DNA from: a virus
Strand: one strand, 5' to 3'
Length of the DNA: 38,163 nucleotides
Virus record (IMG/VR): IMGVR_UViG_3300034198_013112
Coordinates: 1 to 38,163 of that record
Numbering within the stretch: position 1 is the stretch's first letter; the number at the start of each line of letters is the position of its first letter. Positions 6,584-38,163 of this stretch are shown here, piece by piece. The position numbers and the translations under genes were made by a program. The notes under the pieces are model-generated. The model made no database searches and was not told where the DNA came from. It was given only the letters and a program-made list of their open reading frames with translations.

Positions 6584-8270
6584 AAATTTTGGATCGTTCG
6601 GAAACAATTGGACCGAAATTGATCTTGAAAAAAATCAGACAACATTGGTCTGCGGATCTAATGGAAGTGGAAAGTCTTTTGCCTTGTTGGACAGCATAAC
6701 ATTTGCTTTGTTTGGCAAGTCTTTTAGAAAGATAAATTTAACTCAATTGAACAATTCCATCAATAAAAAGAATTGTGTTGTTGAGATAGATTTCAACATA
6801 GACAAGGATGAGTATAAAGTAATTCGTGGGCTTTCACCAAAAGTATTTGAAATTCATAAGAATGGTAAGATGATAAATCAAGATGCCAAGAACTTGGATT
6901 ATCAAGAGGTTTTGGAAGATCAAATACTAAAAATGAACTATAAGACATTCACACAGGTTGTGATTCTTGGTAGCTCCTCGTTCATTCCATTCATGCAATT
7001 GACTGCGGCTGATCGTAGAGCTGTAATAGAAAATATTCTTGATATCAATATATTCAGTACCATGAATATTGTCTTGAAGACCAAGATGACGATTGCTAAG
7101 GAAAATGTCACAGATATAATGAATAAAATTGAATTACAGGAACAAAAAGTCCAATATCAGCAAAAAATAGTGGATAGTCTTGTATTGAGAATAAACAACG
7201 ATGTGAAGAAGATACAGGATGAGATAGATGAACATAGTACTCAGGAAAATGAACTACTACAAAGCATATCAAGATTGAATGAAGAGAAATCTTCCATAAT
7301 ACTTGTTGATGTAATTGGAAAAGTCAAAGAAGAATTTAAAAAGAATGATTCCATGATATCTCAGTATTCCTATAAGATGTCTGATATTGAAAAAGAGGTT
7401 AGGTTTTTTGAAAAGACTGAGAATTGTCCAAAGTGCAAGACAAAACTTTCTGCTGAACTCAAGGTTGAGAATATCAGCAACTTGAACAAGAGTATAGAGG
7501 ATCTTGAGAATACTATAAACACTTTAGCAAAACAGAATGAAGAAAAGCAGAAAATAATAGATTTAAATTCCGAAAATATGGAAAAGATAGCAAATATAGA
7601 TTCTAAGATAAGAGAATTGCAATCATCTATAAAAGAGATGAAATCTCTGGTTTCTTATAAAATGAAACAATTGAATGAATCTAGTAAGATTGAATTGGAT
7701 CTTGTACGCGAAAAAACAACTCTCAAGACAGAAAAGGAAATGCTTGTGAAGCTGAAGGCAGAACTTGCGGAGTTAAAGGATGATGTATCCTATCTCAAGT
7801 TAGCTGGAGATATACTGAAGGATAATGGTGTAAAGATCAAGATAATCAAGCATTATCTTCCAGCAATGAACAAGTATATAAACAAGTATCTCAGGGCCAT
7901 GGATTTCTTTGTTCAATTCAATATAGATGAGGAATTTAATGAAGTCATAAAAAGCAGACATAGGGATGAATTTAGCTATATGAATTTCAGTGAAGGTGAG
8001 AAAATGAGAATTGATCTTGCATTATTACTAGCATGGCGTGATATAGCAAAAATGAAAAATAGTGTTAATTGCAATTTGCTGATTCTGGATGAAATATTCG
8101 ATTCATCACTTGATTCAGTTGGAACTGATGAAGTGTTGAAATTATTGAATGCGCTTGGTAACAAAGCAAATGTTTTCGTGATAAGCCACAAAGCAGATCA
8201 AATTGTAGATAAGTTTTCAAATACCATGACATTTGAAAAGAAAAATAATTTCAGTAAACTAGTAACCTGA
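6555..8270 (+). CDS. 46: Recombination nuclease ATPase gp46 (Rad50/SbcC-like)
   Basis: gp46 is the ATPase partner of gp47. The 571-residue protein (T4: 560) has the complete SMC/Rad50 layout: Walker A GSNGSGKS 34-41; a first coiled coil (about 185-290); the zinc hook CPKC 291-294, which dimerises through a shared metal; a returning coiled coil (about 300-410); the ABC signature FSEGEKMR 478-485; and Walker B LLILDE 508-513 with a following D-loop (SSLDSVGTDE). The final part has a histidine switch candidate in VISHKADQ. The start at 6555 has GAAGG about 12 nt upstream. The frame overlaps the small ORF 6467-6583. All catalytic motifs are intact. Confidence 0.95.
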   Translation: MILFKKIKFKNFGSFGNNWTEIDLEKNQTTLVCGSNGSGKSFALLDSITFALFGKSFRKINLTQLNNSINKKNCVVEIDFNIDKDEYKVIRGLSPKVFEIHKNGKMINQDAKNLDYQEVLEDQILKMNYKTFTQVVILGSSSFIPFMQLTAADRRAVIENILDINIFSTMNIVLKTKMTIAKENVTDIMNKIELQEQKVQYQQKIVDSLVLRINNDVKKIQDEIDEHSTQENELLQSISRLNEEKSSIILVDVIGKVKEEFKKNDSMISQYSYKMSDIEKEVRFFEKTENCPKCKTKLSAELKVENISNLNKSIEDLENTINTLAKQNEEKQKIIDLNSENMEKIANIDSKIRELQSSIKEMKSLVSYKMKQLNESSKIELDLVREKTTLKTEKEMLVKLKAELAELKDDVSYLKLAGDILKDNGVKIKIIKHYLPAMNKYINKYLRAMDFFVQFNIDEEFNEVIKSRHRDEFSYMNFSEGEKMRIDLALLLAWRDIAKMKNSVNCNLLILDEIFDSSLDSVGTDEVLKLLNALGNKANVFVISHKADQIVDKFSNTMTFEKKNNFSKLVT

Positions 8271-15644: not shown

Positions 15645-16615
15645 AAATTTTATACATCACAACAGATGAAAATAAAAATCTTCATGCTGCCGATAGAGCA
15701 CAGGGAGATTATATTGAAAATACTATTTTGCTTGGATTAAGAAAACTATTAGGTAAAGATTGTGTGGACTATCCACGAAAAAGAATTCTTTATCATGATT
15801 GGTCTGATGTCAAAAGAGATAGTCTTCATGGTAGAGGATTTTCCTTATATCATGAACCAATGGAAGATATTCCATCAGAATGTAGAAATCTAGATAATCA
15901 AACATTTGATGTTATTTTATATGGAACTGCATATGCATGGAATATGAAGGATATTCCAGAACTTGAGGCAAAAGCTAAAGTTAAATTTTATATTGATGGG
16001 CATGATTTATACGGTCATGCAACCAATAATCGTTATATTGAATTTCGTGGAGAAAAACTTATTGGAAATCAAGTTTCTCCTAGCTTTAAGGGGCAGATAA
16101 TTGAAGAGCAGGAACATGTTTATCCTACTGGTGTTGGGTTACCAGAAAGTAGAATAATACCTATCGATTTTTCTAGAAAACGCCAATTGATACAAAAAGC
16201 TTATCCTCGTCATGCTTTCTTTGAACCAGCATATGAAATAAATCGCAGCCATTATCTTTTTACAAATGAAAATGAATATTACTCTGACATGGCAAATTCG
16301 TGGTTTGGTTTGACATGCAAAAGAGGTGGTTATGATGCAATGCGTCATTATGAGATAATAGCAGCTGGGGCATTATTACTATATCGTGATTATCATCTAA
16401 AACCAAAATTATGCGCACCTGGAAATTTGCCAGCAATCAACTATACTTCGCGAGAAGAATTGATGAATATTATGAATTCTTTAGTTATAAATAATAGACC
16501 AACAGATGAATATATTCGTTTATTGGATATGCAAAGAAAATGGCTTGTGAATAATGCTACTACTGTAGCAAGAGCAAAATATGTATTGGAGATTTTAAAT
16601 CATTATGTCAAATGA
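15641..16615 (+). CDS. GT-B glycosyltransferase (group 1 type)
   Basis: A 324-residue protein with a GT-B outline. It opens MKILYITTDEN, has VILYGTAYAWNM and KVKFYIDGHDLYGHA in the N-terminal half, and the C-terminal part has WFGLTCKRGGYDAMRHYEIIAAGALLL (about 222-248), where the conserved Glu in the YEIIAAG segment would bind the donor. This layout resembles CgeB-like and group 1 glycosyltransferases. It overlaps the preceding gene by ATGA and the next by 11 nt. The substrate is unknown. Confidence 0.65.
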   Translation: MKILYITTDENKNLHAADRAQGDYIENTILLGLRKLLGKDCVDYPRKRILYHDWSDVKRDSLHGRGFSLYHEPMEDIPSECRNLDNQTFDVILYGTAYAWNMKDIPELEAKAKVKFYIDGHDLYGHATNNRYIEFRGEKLIGNQVSPSFKGQIIEEQEHVYPTGVGLPESRIIPIDFSRKRQLIQKAYPRHAFFEPAYEINRSHYLFTNENEYYSDMANSWFGLTCKRGGYDAMRHYEIIAAGALLLYRDYHLKPKLCAPGNLPAINYTSREELMNIMNSLVINNRPTDEYIRLLDMQRKWLVNNATTVARAKYVLEILNHYVK

Positions 16616-17351
16616 TAAATTGAATATAGATGAATTTACAATTTGCCTGCACTGTGGCTGTAATAGAGAATTGGTTAATCGCCAAATTGAAGCATTAGTA
16701 CCATTAGAATCAAAATACAATATTCATTGGAATAATAGAATAGATCGTTATCCTAAGATGTATCCTACTTATTCACAATTGATAAATCATTCAGTAGTTA
16801 CTTCACAAACTGAATGGGTGATATTAATCAATGACAGATGTTCTCCAACAGTAAATGAAATTGAAAAAATGTTAAATTTATTAAAAAATGGATTTGCATG
16901 TGTTCTTCTTTATAATGTAGGTTTTATGGGATTTTCTAAAGAACTTATCCGTAAAATAGGATGGTGGGATGAAAGATTCATTCAGGGGTGGGAAGATAGA
17001 GATTGGGTATGGAGAATTCAACAAAATAACCTTGCTTTATATGAAAGTCAGGAAAGCTCATATGATTATAGTTGGCGTTCTCCTTTGAACCACCCACCTG
17101 GAAAATGTGAAGAGGGTCATTTAAGAGCAAAATATGATTTTAATAACCCAATGTATGTTTTAAAAAATCTTCCAGAAGAAAAATATCAACACTGGGATCT
17201 GTTCATAGGTGATGAAAGAAAAGATATTAGTGATACTTGGATGACATGGGATAAATCTATTCTCGGTGTTGCTTATGATAGACCAAATTCTGGTCCACCA
17301 GGATCAGCCTTTATTGGAAATAGAAAGATTGTGGAAACTTATGCCAAATAA
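16605..17351 (+). CDS. GT2-like glycosyltransferase
   Basis: A 248-residue protein with a GT-A fold of GT2 type. WVILINDRCSPT (about 71-82) takes the place of the usual DxD segment (IND-R), and WWDERFIQGWEDRDWVWRI (about 119-137) is the classic GT2 ED-type acceptor/base motif. The C-terminal third (residues 150-248) is not recognised. It overlaps the preceding gene by 11 nt and the SDR gene by 11 nt. The exact reaction is unknown. Confidence 0.68.
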   Translation: MSNDKLNIDEFTICLHCGCNRELVNRQIEALVPLESKYNIHWNNRIDRYPKMYPTYSQLINHSVVTSQTEWVILINDRCSPTVNEIEKMLNLLKNGFACVLLYNVGFMGFSKELIRKIGWWDERFIQGWEDRDWVWRIQQNNLALYESQESSYDYSWRSPLNHPPGKCEEGHLRAKYDFNNPMYVLKNLPEEKYQHWDLFIGDERKDISDTWMTWDKSILGVAYDRPNSGPPGSAFIGNRKIVETYAK

Positions 17352-34943: not shown

Positions 34944-35423
34944 ATGACAAATAGTGAACTTTTCGAAATGCACAAAAAACTGTGTGATTCTGCTCTTAAA
35001 CTGATGCAGAAAAAGAATCATGATTATTCAGGTAAGAGTGGCAAGGAACCATTCGCTAATTTCACCCGTGCCGAAGCCATGGGAATCACTACAACAGAGA
35101 AGGGAATGCTTGTTCGTATGCTCGACAAGATCAGTCGCCTTTCATCGTTTGCTGATTCTGGTGAATTCAAGGTAGAGGATGAGAAGCTTGAGGATACCAT
35201 AATTGATATCATCAATTATTCTGTTCTTCTATACGCATATGTTCAGCAAAAGAATACGAAGAATACTGGACAGATGGATCTTCAATACGATATAATGGAG
35301 CTTCGAGTACCACATTTATTTGATGAATATATCAACGATATTCAGGCAAGATATGGAATGGATGCTCCATTGTATTCCAAGGGAAGTGTTGTTCGAGGCG
35401 CGGAAGATCCAAAACGAGTATGA
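34944..35423 (+). CDS. DUF1599/nucleotide-modification-associated-like protein
   Basis: A 159-residue all-alpha protein. The stretch MQKKNHDYSGKSGKEPFANFTRAEAMGI followed by KGMLVRMLDKISRLSSF, an acidic loop and EDTIIDIINYSVLLYAYV is the pattern of the DUF1599 proteins, distant relatives of MazG-type nucleotide pyrophosphohydrolases. The D-Y-S and E-D-x-x-x-D residues are probable metal contacts. A nucleotide-pool function fits its location between dUTPase and DNA polymerase. AAGGAT is placed before the start. It overlaps gene 43A by ATGA. The exact substrate is unknown. Confidence 0.7.
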   Translation: MTNSELFEMHKKLCDSALKLMQKKNHDYSGKSGKEPFANFTRAEAMGITTTEKGMLVRMLDKISRLSSFADSGEFKVEDEKLEDTIIDIINYSVLLYAYVQQKNTKNTGQMDLQYDIMELRVPHLFDEYINDIQARYGMDAPLYSKGSVVRGAEDPKRV

Positions 35424-36895
35424 ACTTCTACACAAATGTTTTTTATGATGGCTCCAAGATCCTGTATCGTGGAGTCAATGATGGTAATTCTGTCGATGAA
35501 GTACTCGACTATGAATCATGTCTTTACATCCCCACTGGAAAGGGTACCAAGTTCAAGACAATCGATGGTCGATATGCAGAGAAGATCTGCTTCGGCAACA
35601 TCTATGAAATGAACGATTTCAAGCGCACATACGAGAATGTATCTGGGTTTGATATTCACGGTGATATTGGTATTGAATATCAATTCATTTCATCTAAGTA
35701 TGGTACTGAATGCGAGTATAATTTCTCTCAGATCAACATTCTATACATTGATATCGAAACTACATGTGAGTCTGGGTTTCCAGAGATTGAAAACCCGCAG
35801 GAACAAGTGATTGCCATTACATGCATGATGAATGGAATGAAGCATGTATTCTGCCTTGGTGAATTCTCATGCAATGATGCCAATACAGTGGTGAAGTCTC
35901 ATGAAGATGAGAAGGAAATGTTCTATGACTTCATCAAATACTTCAAGAAACAGGCTCCCCATGTCATCAGTGGATGGAATATTCGATTCTTCGATATTCC
36001 CTATCTAATCAATCGAATTGAGTATCTTGATGATTCTCTATTGGATATCAAGGAACTTTCACCATGGGGAATCATCAAGGGGAAGATGGTAAATAAAGGT
36101 GGAAAAGAATACACCGTATATGACATTGTGGGAGTATCCACGCTAGATTATTATGAAGTCTACAAGACTTTTACATATGTCAATCAAGAGTCATATAAGC
36201 TCGACCACATTGCATGGGTAGAGCTTGGTGAACGCAAGATTTCGTATGATGAGTACGATAGCATTTCTGACTTCTACAAGAAGAACTTTCAGAAGTTCAT
36301 TGAATACAACATCAAGGATGTTGAACTAGTTCAGCGACTTGAACAGAAGATGCGCTTGATTGAATTGTGCGTTGCACTGGCTTATTCCGCAGGAGTAAAC
36401 TATGCAGATGTCTTCTCTCAGGTTAAGACATGGGATATCATCATTTACAATCATCTGCTCAAGAGAAATATCGTGGTTCCACCCAAAAAGCACCAGGAAA
36501 AAACAGATCAGTATGCTGGCGCATATGTCAAGGAACCATTGATCGGTATGCATAAGTGGGTTGTATCATTTGATATTTCAAGTATGTATCCCTCTACGAT
36601 CATGCAATACAATATCTCACCAGAGACTCTAGTAGATCATTTTGATGTAAATATCAAGGTAAATGACATTGTAGCACCTAGCGAGAACATGAAGAATCTG
36701 CTACAATCTGTGAAGGAAAACAAGTGCTCAATCACTGCGAATGGCACATGTTATACGAACGAAAAGCATGGATTTCTTCCAGAATTGATGGATAAGATGT
36801 ACAAGGATCGAAAGATGTTCAAGAACATGATGATTGAATCCAAGAAGAAGCTTGAAGCAATCAATAATGAAATCAACAAGCGAGGCATCAAGTGA
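35420..36895 (+). CDS. 43A: DNA polymerase gp43, N-terminal half (exonuclease and motif A only)
   Basis: A family B DNA polymerase of T4 gp43 type, but ending at 491 residues where T4 has 898. Present: N-terminal domain; the complete 3'-5' exonuclease (DIE 111-113, SGWNIRFFD 184-192, YNIKD 296-300); and palm motif A (SFDISSMYPS 383-392). The chain stops soon after the first fingers helix (PELMDKMYKDRKMF 454-467). Motif B (NxxYG) and motif C (DTD) are absent, and the stop codon is the start of the next gene (GTGA), with no trace of them in the 1.2 kb after it. Natural split gp43A/gp43B genes are known from Aeromonas T4-like phages. The C-terminal half should lie outside the window. Confidence 0.92.
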   Translation: MNFYTNVFYDGSKILYRGVNDGNSVDEVLDYESCLYIPTGKGTKFKTIDGRYAEKICFGNIYEMNDFKRTYENVSGFDIHGDIGIEYQFISSKYGTECEYNFSQINILYIDIETTCESGFPEIENPQEQVIAITCMMNGMKHVFCLGEFSCNDANTVVKSHEDEKEMFYDFIKYFKKQAPHVISGWNIRFFDIPYLINRIEYLDDSLLDIKELSPWGIIKGKMVNKGGKEYTVYDIVGVSTLDYYEVYKTFTYVNQESYKLDHIAWVELGERKISYDEYDSISDFYKKNFQKFIEYNIKDVELVQRLEQKMRLIELCVALAYSAGVNYADVFSQVKTWDIIIYNHLLKRNIVVPPKKHQEKTDQYAGAYVKEPLIGMHKWVVSFDISSMYPSTIMQYNISPETLVDHFDVNIKVNDIVAPSENMKNLLQSVKENKCSITANGTCYTNEKHGFLPELMDKMYKDRKMFKNMMIESKKKLEAINNEINKRGIK

Positions 36896-37431
36896 ATGTA
36901 ATTGACTATTACAAGGATTGGGAAGCACAGGCAATTCTTGCCGATCTCAATACCAAGCGAAATGATTTCACTGTGATTGCAAGTAATCTTGAAAATGATT
37001 TCAATATTGCAACACTAATTCGAAATGCAAATGCATTCATGGCTGCTGAAGTATGGATCTATGGTCGTAAGCAATATGATCGTCGTGGTACTGTTGGCAC
37101 TCATCATTACACAAACTTCAAGCATGTCAAGACAATTGACAGCGTTCATGATGCATTGAATCAACTTCGCATTCAACACGAAGGAAATATCAATATTGTA
37201 GGCATGGACAATATTCCTGGTGCCAAGGATATCACTAACTATGAATGGGATTGTGACATGCATACCGTGATGGTATTTGGTCAGGAAAAGAACGGTATTC
37301 CAACCGAACTTCTGTCTGTATGTGATGATGTAGTGTATATTCCACAGTATGGAAGTGTTCGTAGCCTGAATGTCGGAACCGCAAGTGGCATTGCCATGTA
37401 TGCATATTGCAGCAATCTTGTTTCAATGTGA
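36892..37431 (+). CDS. SpoU/TrmH-family RNA 2'-O-methyltransferase (GTG start)
   Basis: A 179-residue SPOUT enzyme, which puts a methyl on a ribose 2'-OH of tRNA or rRNA. The three motifs are complete: NIATLIRNANAF 38-49 (motif 1, with Arg44), FGQEKNGIP 129-137 (motif 2), and IPQYGSVRSLNVGTA 150-164 (motif 3), which form the trefoil knot for SAM. The GTG at 36892 overlaps the polymerase stop; no in-frame ATG is near, and GAGG is 7 nt upstream. It lies just before two tRNA genes, so phage or host tRNAs are plausible substrates (inference). Confidence 0.9.
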   Translation: MNVIDYYKDWEAQAILADLNTKRNDFTVIASNLENDFNIATLIRNANAFMAAEVWIYGRKQYDRRGTVGTHHYTNFKHVKTIDSVHDALNQLRIQHEGNINIVGMDNIPGAKDITNYEWDCDMHTVMVFGQEKNGIPTELLSVCDDVVYIPQYGSVRSLNVGTASGIAMYAYCSNLVSM

Positions 37432-37477: not shown

Positions 37478-37570
37478 ATGTCACGACCACAAACACGAAC
37501 CAAGTGTCGTCGCCGCCGCAAGATCGGCAGCAAGAAGCGACGAGCACGAAAGCTTGCTCTTAAGAATTGA
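37478..37570 (+). CDS. 30-residue Arg/Lys-rich microprotein
   Basis: A short ORF encoding MSRPQTRTKCRRRRKIGSKK followed by ten residues ending ALKN. Nine Arg and six Lys make up half of the chain, with a single Cys. AGGAGG (37466-37471) lies 6 nt before this ATG; an alternative ATG at 37474 in another frame is only 2 nt from it and gives an unrelated 28-residue product, so the basic frame is preferred. It sits between a perfect sigma-70 promoter and tRNA-Gln. Binding to RNA, DNA or ribosomes is a reasonable guess given the charge. No family recognised. Its GC content is higher than that of upstream genes. Confidence 0.7.
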   Translation: MSRPQTRTKCRRRRKIGSKKRRARKLALKN

Positions 37571-37575
37571 GCAGT

Positions 37576-37646
37576 TGCCCTGTGATGAAATGGTATCATA
37601 GGAGGCTTTGAACCTCCGCTTCTTGGTTCGAATCCAAGCAGGGCAT
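37576..37646 (+). tRNA. tRNA-Gln (anticodon UUG)
   Basis: A full cloverleaf of 71 nt: acceptor TGCCCTG/CAGGGCA, D-stem ATGA/TCAT, anticodon stem GGAGG/CCTCC with loop CTTTGAA (anticodon TTG at 37608-37610), variable loop GCTT, T-stem CTTGG/CCAAG with loop TTCGAAT. The U1-A72 pair is typical of tRNA-Gln. The 3' CCA is not encoded (TTT follows), so it is added afterwards. It reads CAA, a common Gln codon in these AT-rich genes. Confidence 0.93.
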
Positions 37647-37650
37647 TTAC

Positions 37651-37723
37651 GGCGCGGTAGACCAATGGCAGAGTCAATTGACTCAAAATCAATACAGTGT
37701 GGGTTCGAGTCCCACTCGCGCTA
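37651..37723 (+). tRNA. tRNA with Leu anticodon CAA, short variable loop
   Basis: A cloverleaf of 73 nt: acceptor GGCGCGG/TCGCGCT with G-U pairs at both ends, D-stem GAC/GTC, anticodon stem ATTGA/TCAAT with loop CTCAAAA (anticodon CAA at 37684-37686), five-nt variable loop ACAGT, and T-stem GTGGG/CCCAC with loop TTCGAGT. CAA reads UUG (Leu) and position 73 is A as in tRNA-Leu. Bacterial tRNA-Leu normally has a long variable arm; this one does not, so its true charging is uncertain. CCA is not encoded; the next gene starts 3 nt later. Confidence 0.82.
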
Positions 37724-38032: not shown

Positions 38033-38163
38033 ATGAAGACACTAATCGCAACAGCATTTATCGCAACGGCAGCACGCGCAGAACTCTGCACCTTTGAGAA
38101 TCTTCCTGCGCCGACATTTGCGGAATACAACACGCCGCAGACTGGCTTTTGGATTGATCCTCT
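38033..38163 (+). CDS. Start of a secreted protein (cut by window end)
   Basis: An ORF open to the window edge. AAGGAG (38019-38024) is 8 nt before the ATG. Its first 16 residues, MKTLIATAFIATAARA, are a classical signal peptide: a Lys, a hydrophobic core and an A-R-A cleavage site. The mature part starts ELCTFENLPAPTFAEY and continues with NTPQTGFW. Export to the host periplasm or outside is inferred. The FENL start resembles some secreted bacterial proteins of unknown function, but 27 residues are too few to name it. The GC content is far higher than in the rest of the window, suggesting transfer from a GC-richer source. Confidence 0.65.
   Translation, partial: MKTLIATAFIATAARAELCTFENLPAPTFAEYNTPQTGFWIDP

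Follow-up and report, generated by a model that had tools for sequence, protein, structure and literature searches.

The window analyzed here is a 38,163-b fragment of a viral genome (IMG/VR record IMGVR_UViG_3300034198_013112) that ends 1.27 kb past gp43A, the gene for the N-terminal half of a T4-type family B DNA polymerase (Table 1). The encoded protein is 491 amino acids long and comprises the exonuclease, palm motif A and the first part of the fingers. Pfam matched DNA_pol_B_exo1 at 108 bits, and the DNA_pol_B match was limited to positions 20 to 146 of 453; thus, motifs B and C are absent. The original prediction had described a gene holding the exonuclease and palm motif A that then stops and overlaps a SpoU methyltransferase, and both points were borne out, with an overlap of 4 nt at the gp43A stop codon. 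It had also noted that the missing fingers, motif C and thumb are not encoded in the next 1.2 kb; no second PolB match exists in the whole record. Because the record is a fragment that ends so soon after gp43A, the C-terminal half of this virus lies outside the searchable sequence.

Table 1. Features at the gp43A end of the window
Feature	Position	Strand	Basis
gp43A, N-terminal half of T4-type family B DNA polymerase	35420..36895	+	Pfam, PHROG 2062, alignments to RB69 and Aes120
SpoU/TrmH-like RNA methyltransferase	36892..37431	+	PF00588, 2.3e-27; GTG start
30-aa Arg/Lys-rich microprotein MSRPQTRTKCRRRRKIGSKKRRARKLALKN	37478..37570	+	29/30 identical in L002
tRNA-Gln (ttg), spacer gene	37576..37646	+	
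tRNA-Leu (caa), spacer gene	37651..37723	+	
PEP-CTERM-like protein gene, 5' end, cut by record end	38033..38163	+	

The end of gp43A falls at a known split residue, between palm motif A and motif B. Window gp43A matched PHROG 2062, a family of 502-aa half-polymerases, over its full length, and its alignment to the intact gp43 of RB69 runs to residue 502, inside the fingers. The gp43A of Aeromonas phage Aes120, compared directly, is split at the identical residue in the fingers, though the two proteins are only 29% identical. Among the closest IMG/VR relatives, which are 61 to 70% identical to window gp43A (L numbers are labels of the loci compared), gp43A ends at about the same place in L002 to L005 (61 to 66%) and in L015 (70%, C-terminal part only). 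The split gp43A and gp43B of Aeromonas phages 25, 44RR, Aes120 and phiAS4 and of Acinetobacter phage Ac42 likewise belong to PHROG 2062 and PHROG 1918. The window split is therefore a further case of the known gp43A/gp43B kind. The split alone is ordinary, since split gp43 with intervening genes is already known from Ac42. A second, different gp43 split site was seen in L010 (5532-8929), where the gene is divided after about residue 405 (S-SM2 numbering), before the fingers, and the gap holds a GIY-YIG-like open reading frame (6829-7617).

All of the genes that the original prediction listed after gp43A (a methyltransferase, a microprotein, two tRNAs and two further genes) were found, the last two as open reading frames downstream of tRNA-Leu. 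The methyltransferase is the first gene of the spacer before gp43B and directly follows gp43A in L002 and L004 as well. The microprotein (consensus MSRPQxRTKCRRRRKIGSKKRRARKLALKN) is extremely basic, and 29 of its 30 residues are identical between the window and L002 (12036-12128), whose gp43A share only 66% identity. Spacer tRNAs also occur in the relatives, and a PEP-CTERM-like gene is present in L002 to L004 and L015; the remaining spacer genes vary. The homologue of this gene starts 3.9 kb before gp43B in L002 and 6.3 kb before it in L004, which places the gp43B of the window virus, by inference, about 4 to 6 kb beyond the record. Genes for such PEP-CTERM-like secreted proteins, with a PAPSALALL...RRRR tail, lie in the gp43 spacer of these phages (L004 12087-12740 and L002 14172-14807) and of many other relatives, although exosortase sorting signals are typical of proteins from bacteria rather than phage. 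The L002 spacer also encodes a permuted tmRNA (RF04321, 74.6 bits; 16343-16655). Only tRNAs and this permuted tmRNA were recovered by Rfam in the window and the spacers of the relatives, with no intron at the gathering threshold.

In each of the five relatives that extend far enough, motifs B and C are encoded downstream by a gp43B gene of their own. The distance from the end of gp43A to gp43B is 6.6 kb in L002, where uvsX immediately follows gp43B, 8.0 kb in L004 and L015, 8.7 kb in L003 and 8.9 kb in L005; in other relatives, the halves are 0.2 to 4.4 kb apart. The closest relatives thus support the proposal that the two halves are encoded far from each other. This spacing had been presented as a departure from the Aeromonas pattern, which holds for the relatives, but there is a precedent in Ac42, in which seven genes separate the annotated gp43A from gp43B. 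Split gp43 genes (Petrov et al. 2010, cited in PMC2988022), including those with a seg-type gene, are already described; according to PMC2988022, 43A and 43B of Aeromonas phage 25 copurify as an active two-chain enzyme. By analogy with Aeromonas phage 25, window gp43A would assemble as one of two chains with a gp43B encoded several kilobases downstream, next to uvsX.

The gp43B genes of the relatives, outside the window, brought a second interruption to light. In 26 distinct gp43B genes, taken from viral contigs by a search for relatives and by patterns for motif B plus a stop, motif B (NSAYGAxG) is followed at once by an insertion of 5 to 10 nt. The layout is constant: the last Gly codon of motif B is followed by a stop, a second GGN and then the normal next codon. 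The insertion-free gp43B of L004 reads TAC GGT GCT ATT GGT AAT GCG, whereas the interrupted genes of L005 and L002 read TAC GGC GCA ATA GGT TAG GT AAT GCT and TAC GGC GCA GTA GGT TAG GGA AAT GAA. A stop follows the first Gly codon, hereafter the take-off codon, in all 26 genes (TAG in 20, TAA in 4 and TGA in 2), 19 of which were found by patterns requiring the stop. GGN precedes the resume codon in all 26 as well, and here the resume site was set by protein conservation alone, with GGN not forced. The insert length n up to the resume codon is 5 (14 genes), 6 (2), 8 (2), 9 (6) or 10 (2), so that all three frames are represented (n mod 3 is 2 in 16 genes, 0 in 8 and 1 in 2). The first open reading frame, or leader, is 44 to 48 codons long in most of these genes. 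The window virus would have a gp43B of one type or the other, with or without the insertion.

Several explanations were set aside. An alternative genetic code or a suppressor tRNA was rejected because inserts of 5, 8 and 10 nt shift the frame. Sequencing error was rejected because the same inserts turn up in metagenomes of independent origin and the GGN pair is never missing. Reinitiation after the stop, which would make this a third split, was rejected as well, since the gp43 frame has no conserved start codon at that point. A TAA/TAG motif-B pattern run against 85,000 prokaryote genomes had a single match, unrelated and due to chance, and no cultured phage with such an insertion was among the matches listed in nucleotide and endonuclease searches of a phage collection.

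The best reading of these sequences is a ribosome hop, as one type of event would cover all 26 genes and restore exactly the normal protein. The short insert would not be spliced out. Once the Gly codon occupies the P site and the stop the A site, the peptidyl-tRNA-Gly would detach, slide 5 to 10 nt and re-pair with the next GGN, and translation would resume at the normal next codon. The take-off and landing codons are separated by 2 to 7 nt; they are identical in 14 of the 26 genes, and the same isoacceptor is expected to read both in 19. The other seven pairs have a third-base mismatch and would need a nonstandard third-base contact for one Gly isoacceptor, which is a weak point of the proposed hop.

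We consider it unlikely that the stop is passed by ordinary recoding, in which inserts of 5 or 8 nt would call for a -1 frameshift and those of 6 or 9 nt for stop readthrough that adds residues past motif B. The -1 frame is indeed open (TTA GGN) in the former genes, and the frame of the latter is unchanged apart from the stop. However, two mechanisms would be required, with different events in different genes, and neither works for L156 and L158 (n = 10), whose landing frame has a TAA just ahead of the landing codon. Recoding would also put residues into the conserved motif B, it lacks an obvious slippery site at the take-off codon, and it leaves unexplained why, in every gene, the stop and the resume codon are each preceded by GGN.

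The insertions are linked to a homing endonuclease. In L002, L003 and L005, the gene immediately before the interrupted gp43B is of the GIY-YIG type. Counting either a relative of the L002 endonuclease or, in L138 and L147, a nonhomologous nuclease, we found an upstream nuclease in 18 of the 22 interrupted genes with sufficient sequence, as opposed to 0 of 56 genes that lack the insertion. For loci fetched regardless of insertion, the counts were 6/6 and 0/56 (P = 1.6e-8); corrected for relatedness, the association has a P value of about 0.03. The gp43B tree shows at least eight gains or losses of the insertion on well-supported branches. The nonhomologous nuclease of L138 (281-1060), upstream of a gp43B with n = 8, has weak similarity to Vsr and DUF559.

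Two close relatives, L129 and L072, differ by a 1.2-kb cassette that is present in L129 only and consists of the endonuclease, the 5' end of gp43B and the insertion. The flanks are 99.4 to 99.5% identical over 3.8 kb and 4.2 kb and 97% identical over a further 0.8 kb. Downstream of the insertion, the two gp43B genes differ by no amino acid change; the 5' end of the L129 gene differs from the L072 version. The comparison shows a presence/absence polymorphism of a mobile cassette in close relatives. The junction of gp43A and gp43B would be the insertion site of a homing cassette made up of the GIY-YIG gene and the first ~45 codons of gp43B, and we infer that the short sequence after the motif-B Gly codon would protect the gene from endonuclease cleavage. 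In L125 and L137, the insertion is kept beside an endonuclease remnant, and in L148 and L158, it is present where no endonuclease was found. The gp43B of L082 (3474-4622) is insertion free, with cassette-type sequence over its first ~100 nt and a weaker RNA stem, probably because the insertion was lost precisely and the stem then decayed.

The stem in question runs up to the take-off codon. Over the 90 nt before this codon, the mean folding z score is -4.5 in insertion genes versus -1.1 in the others, and the 108 nt that end with it fold with a mean of -44 kcal/mol, versus -20 kcal/mol in insertion-free genes. In the near-identical pair L108 and L072, the values are -50.5 and -24.9 kcal/mol. 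The main feature of the fold is a stem of 15 to 18 bp, with a 3' strand that reaches exactly to the first G of the take-off codon, and RNAalifold recovers this stem unaided. In a gapless alignment of the 26 sequences, the covariation score is 0.294 versus 0.161 in shuffled alignments (0/500), and changes on both sides of a pair occur in 68 cells versus 31 (0/500), far above any slid version. Both sides have changed in 9 to 13 of the 22 distinct sequences at pairs 11/105, 13/103, 14/102 and 23/93. As the patterns used to find loci constrained the 3' strand only, the way in which loci were selected does not account for its pairing to the 5' strand. In 31 insertion-free split gp43B genes, by comparison, the stem is 44% paired and covariation equals that of the shuffles. 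A covariance model built from the insertion genes scored 80 to 121 bits on its own set and no more than 69 bits on insertion-free genes, except for L082 (98 bits). Structure 3' of the landing site is no stronger than in insertion-free genes.

For the proposed hop, this stem suggests a driving force. At take-off, the ribosome would still enclose its 3' strand, which would come out as the slide proceeds, and the re-forming 15 to 18 bp would, by this zippering, pull the mRNA back and drive the peptidyl-tRNA to the landing codon. A repeat of this kind inside a homing cassette, near the presumed cleavage site, might instead act as DNA, either as an endonuclease target or as a recombination scar. 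We regard this as very unlikely because certain fixed positions often hold G-U pairs (UG in 15 of 22 sequences at 18/98; GU or UG in 4 to 5 of 22 at 12/104, 16/100 and 22/94) and the repeat is kept in four loci that yielded no intact endonuclease (L125, L137, L148 and L158).

The interrupted genes are conserved downstream of the stop. Past the insertion, the frame is open to the normal C terminus in every gene not cut by a contig end, and dN/dS downstream is 0.02 to 0.13 in the three pairs close enough to measure. It is highly improbable, therefore, that these alleles are dead polymerase genes, produced when cuts made by the endonuclease were repaired imprecisely, even though each has a stop within its catalytic domain and the inserts vary in length and sit at or near the presumed cleavage site. 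Dead genes would not be expected to recur with identical insertions in several independent metagenomes, to keep the insertion after loss or truncation of the endonuclease (L125, L137 and L148) or to maintain a covarying RNA stem. In addition, no second PolB or PolA was found in the 178-kb contig analyzed.

The insertions fall within a few nucleotides of a known group I intron site. In Aeromonas phages phiAS4, Aes508 and Aes120 and in E. coli phage G2285, the gene order is gp43A, GIY-YIG gene, gp43B, and gp43B contains an Rfam group I intron. Sequence and P1 pairing place this intron after the first base of the codon preceding the same Gly (GGA GCT T^TA GGT AAC in Aes120; GGT GCG T^TG GGT AAC in G2285). 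Among the insertion loci tested, RF00028 was not found at the gathering threshold; its matches were limited to L144 to L146 and L162. The gp43B of Aes508 (L145, 6417-7928) also has an annotated intein with a Vsr-domain open reading frame besides the group I intron, and this gene thus attracts several kinds of mobile element.

An intron so close by raises the idea of a micro-intron, in which the insert is cut from the mRNA and the ends are ligated, with the stem as a processing signal. T4-like phages encode RNA ligases, and the intron of the Aeromonas and E. coli T4-like phages occupies nearly the same place. Even so, we give this account scant credence: no Rfam intron reached the gathering threshold in the insertion loci tested, and the GGN pair with its adjacent stop is needed for a hop, not for splicing. 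As for the window itself, a truncated gene or an assembly error, with an intact gp43 elsewhere in the virus, is barely credible even for an incomplete fragment, because gp43A shares its end point with close relatives, PHROG 2062 and the Aeromonas phages and its 491 codons are free of stops and frameshifts; an assembly error at the gp43A end is ruled out by the same shared end.

Altogether, there is good reason to think that window gp43A is one half of a two-gene gp43 whose relatives carry, in gp43B, a cassette with a miniature bypass of the T4 gene 60 type. It is likely, too, that this is a mobile recoding cassette, widespread in environmental T4-like phages, in which a homing endonuclease splits the polymerase gene and a stem-driven hop of 5 to 10 nt replaces the protective intron. 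The gp43 split itself is known; the hop-bearing cassette, as predicted from sequence, would be a new form of gene-60-type bypassing. We do not claim membership in the gene 60 type as proven, because some features of gene 60 were looked for and found to be absent from the insertion genes: they have no gap hairpin, no stronger 3' structure and no KKYK in the leader peptide.

For the window, the meaning is modest: a gp43A with a partner several kilobases away. For the relatives, the hop, if true, would place gp43B beside T4 gene 60 as another natural family of programmed bypass linked to homing, the second in all and the first in which the hops are short. To our knowledge, T4 gene 60 has been almost the sole solid case of programmed bypass in bacteria and phage since 1988. 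The 26 natural alleles, with their varied hop lengths, frames, stops and covarying stems, would allow a direct test of what ribosome sliding needs at a minimum. A route by which an essential polymerase gene could split and stay split is suggested by the cassette as well: homing endonucleases enter a catalytic site, and a ribosome hop or an intron lets the gene tolerate them. Reviews have raised the question of bypassing in further T4-like genes (PMC3014915), with one from 2010 asking for such cases, and state that counterparts over shorter distances have long been presumed (PMC5009743). A literature search that covered few subscription journals found no prior report of bypassing in gp43 or in a second T4-like gene.

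Among split polymerases, the nearest counterparts of the cassette are those of the Aeromonas phages. Several of these have a GIY-YIG gene between the halves, as do the cassette-bearing relatives. In Ac42, seven genes stand between the halves; the relatives of the window differ from this group in the 6.6 to 8.9 kb found there. In the Aeromonas Tulanevirus phages and the E. coli Mosigvirus G2285, gp43B is interrupted within a few nucleotides of the same point, and a homologous endonuclease domain is encoded in the same place. The interruption itself differs: it is a group I intron, a self-splicing RNA of ~250 nt, in those phages, whereas in the cassette it would be a stop-bearing insert of 5 to 10 nt that is left untranslated.

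Among recoding systems, the closest is T4 39-mobA-60, in which, as in the cassette, a homing endonuclease splits an essential gene. In gene 60, the first open reading frame has 46 codons, a take-off GGA stands beside UAG, and the ribosome slides to a landing GGA; 5' structures that fold on ribosome exit promote the forward slide. A homing origin and the possible descent of the gap from a degenerate intron have both been published. Cassette gp43B shares with gene 60 a first frame of about 46 codons, a Gly take-off codon, a stop, a GGN landing codon and a 5' stem. The gene 60 slide covers 50 nt with a gap hairpin and KKYK, whereas that predicted for gp43B covers 5 to 10 nt with neither; the gene and the endonuclease family are different, and 26 alleles stand against one. 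The byp elements of Magnusiomyces capitatus mitochondria are likewise short untranslated inserts corrected by the ribosome. They are spread over many mitochondrial genes and are read by relaxed decoding without context signals, whereas the cassette would act in a single phage gene with a dedicated RNA stem and endonuclease.
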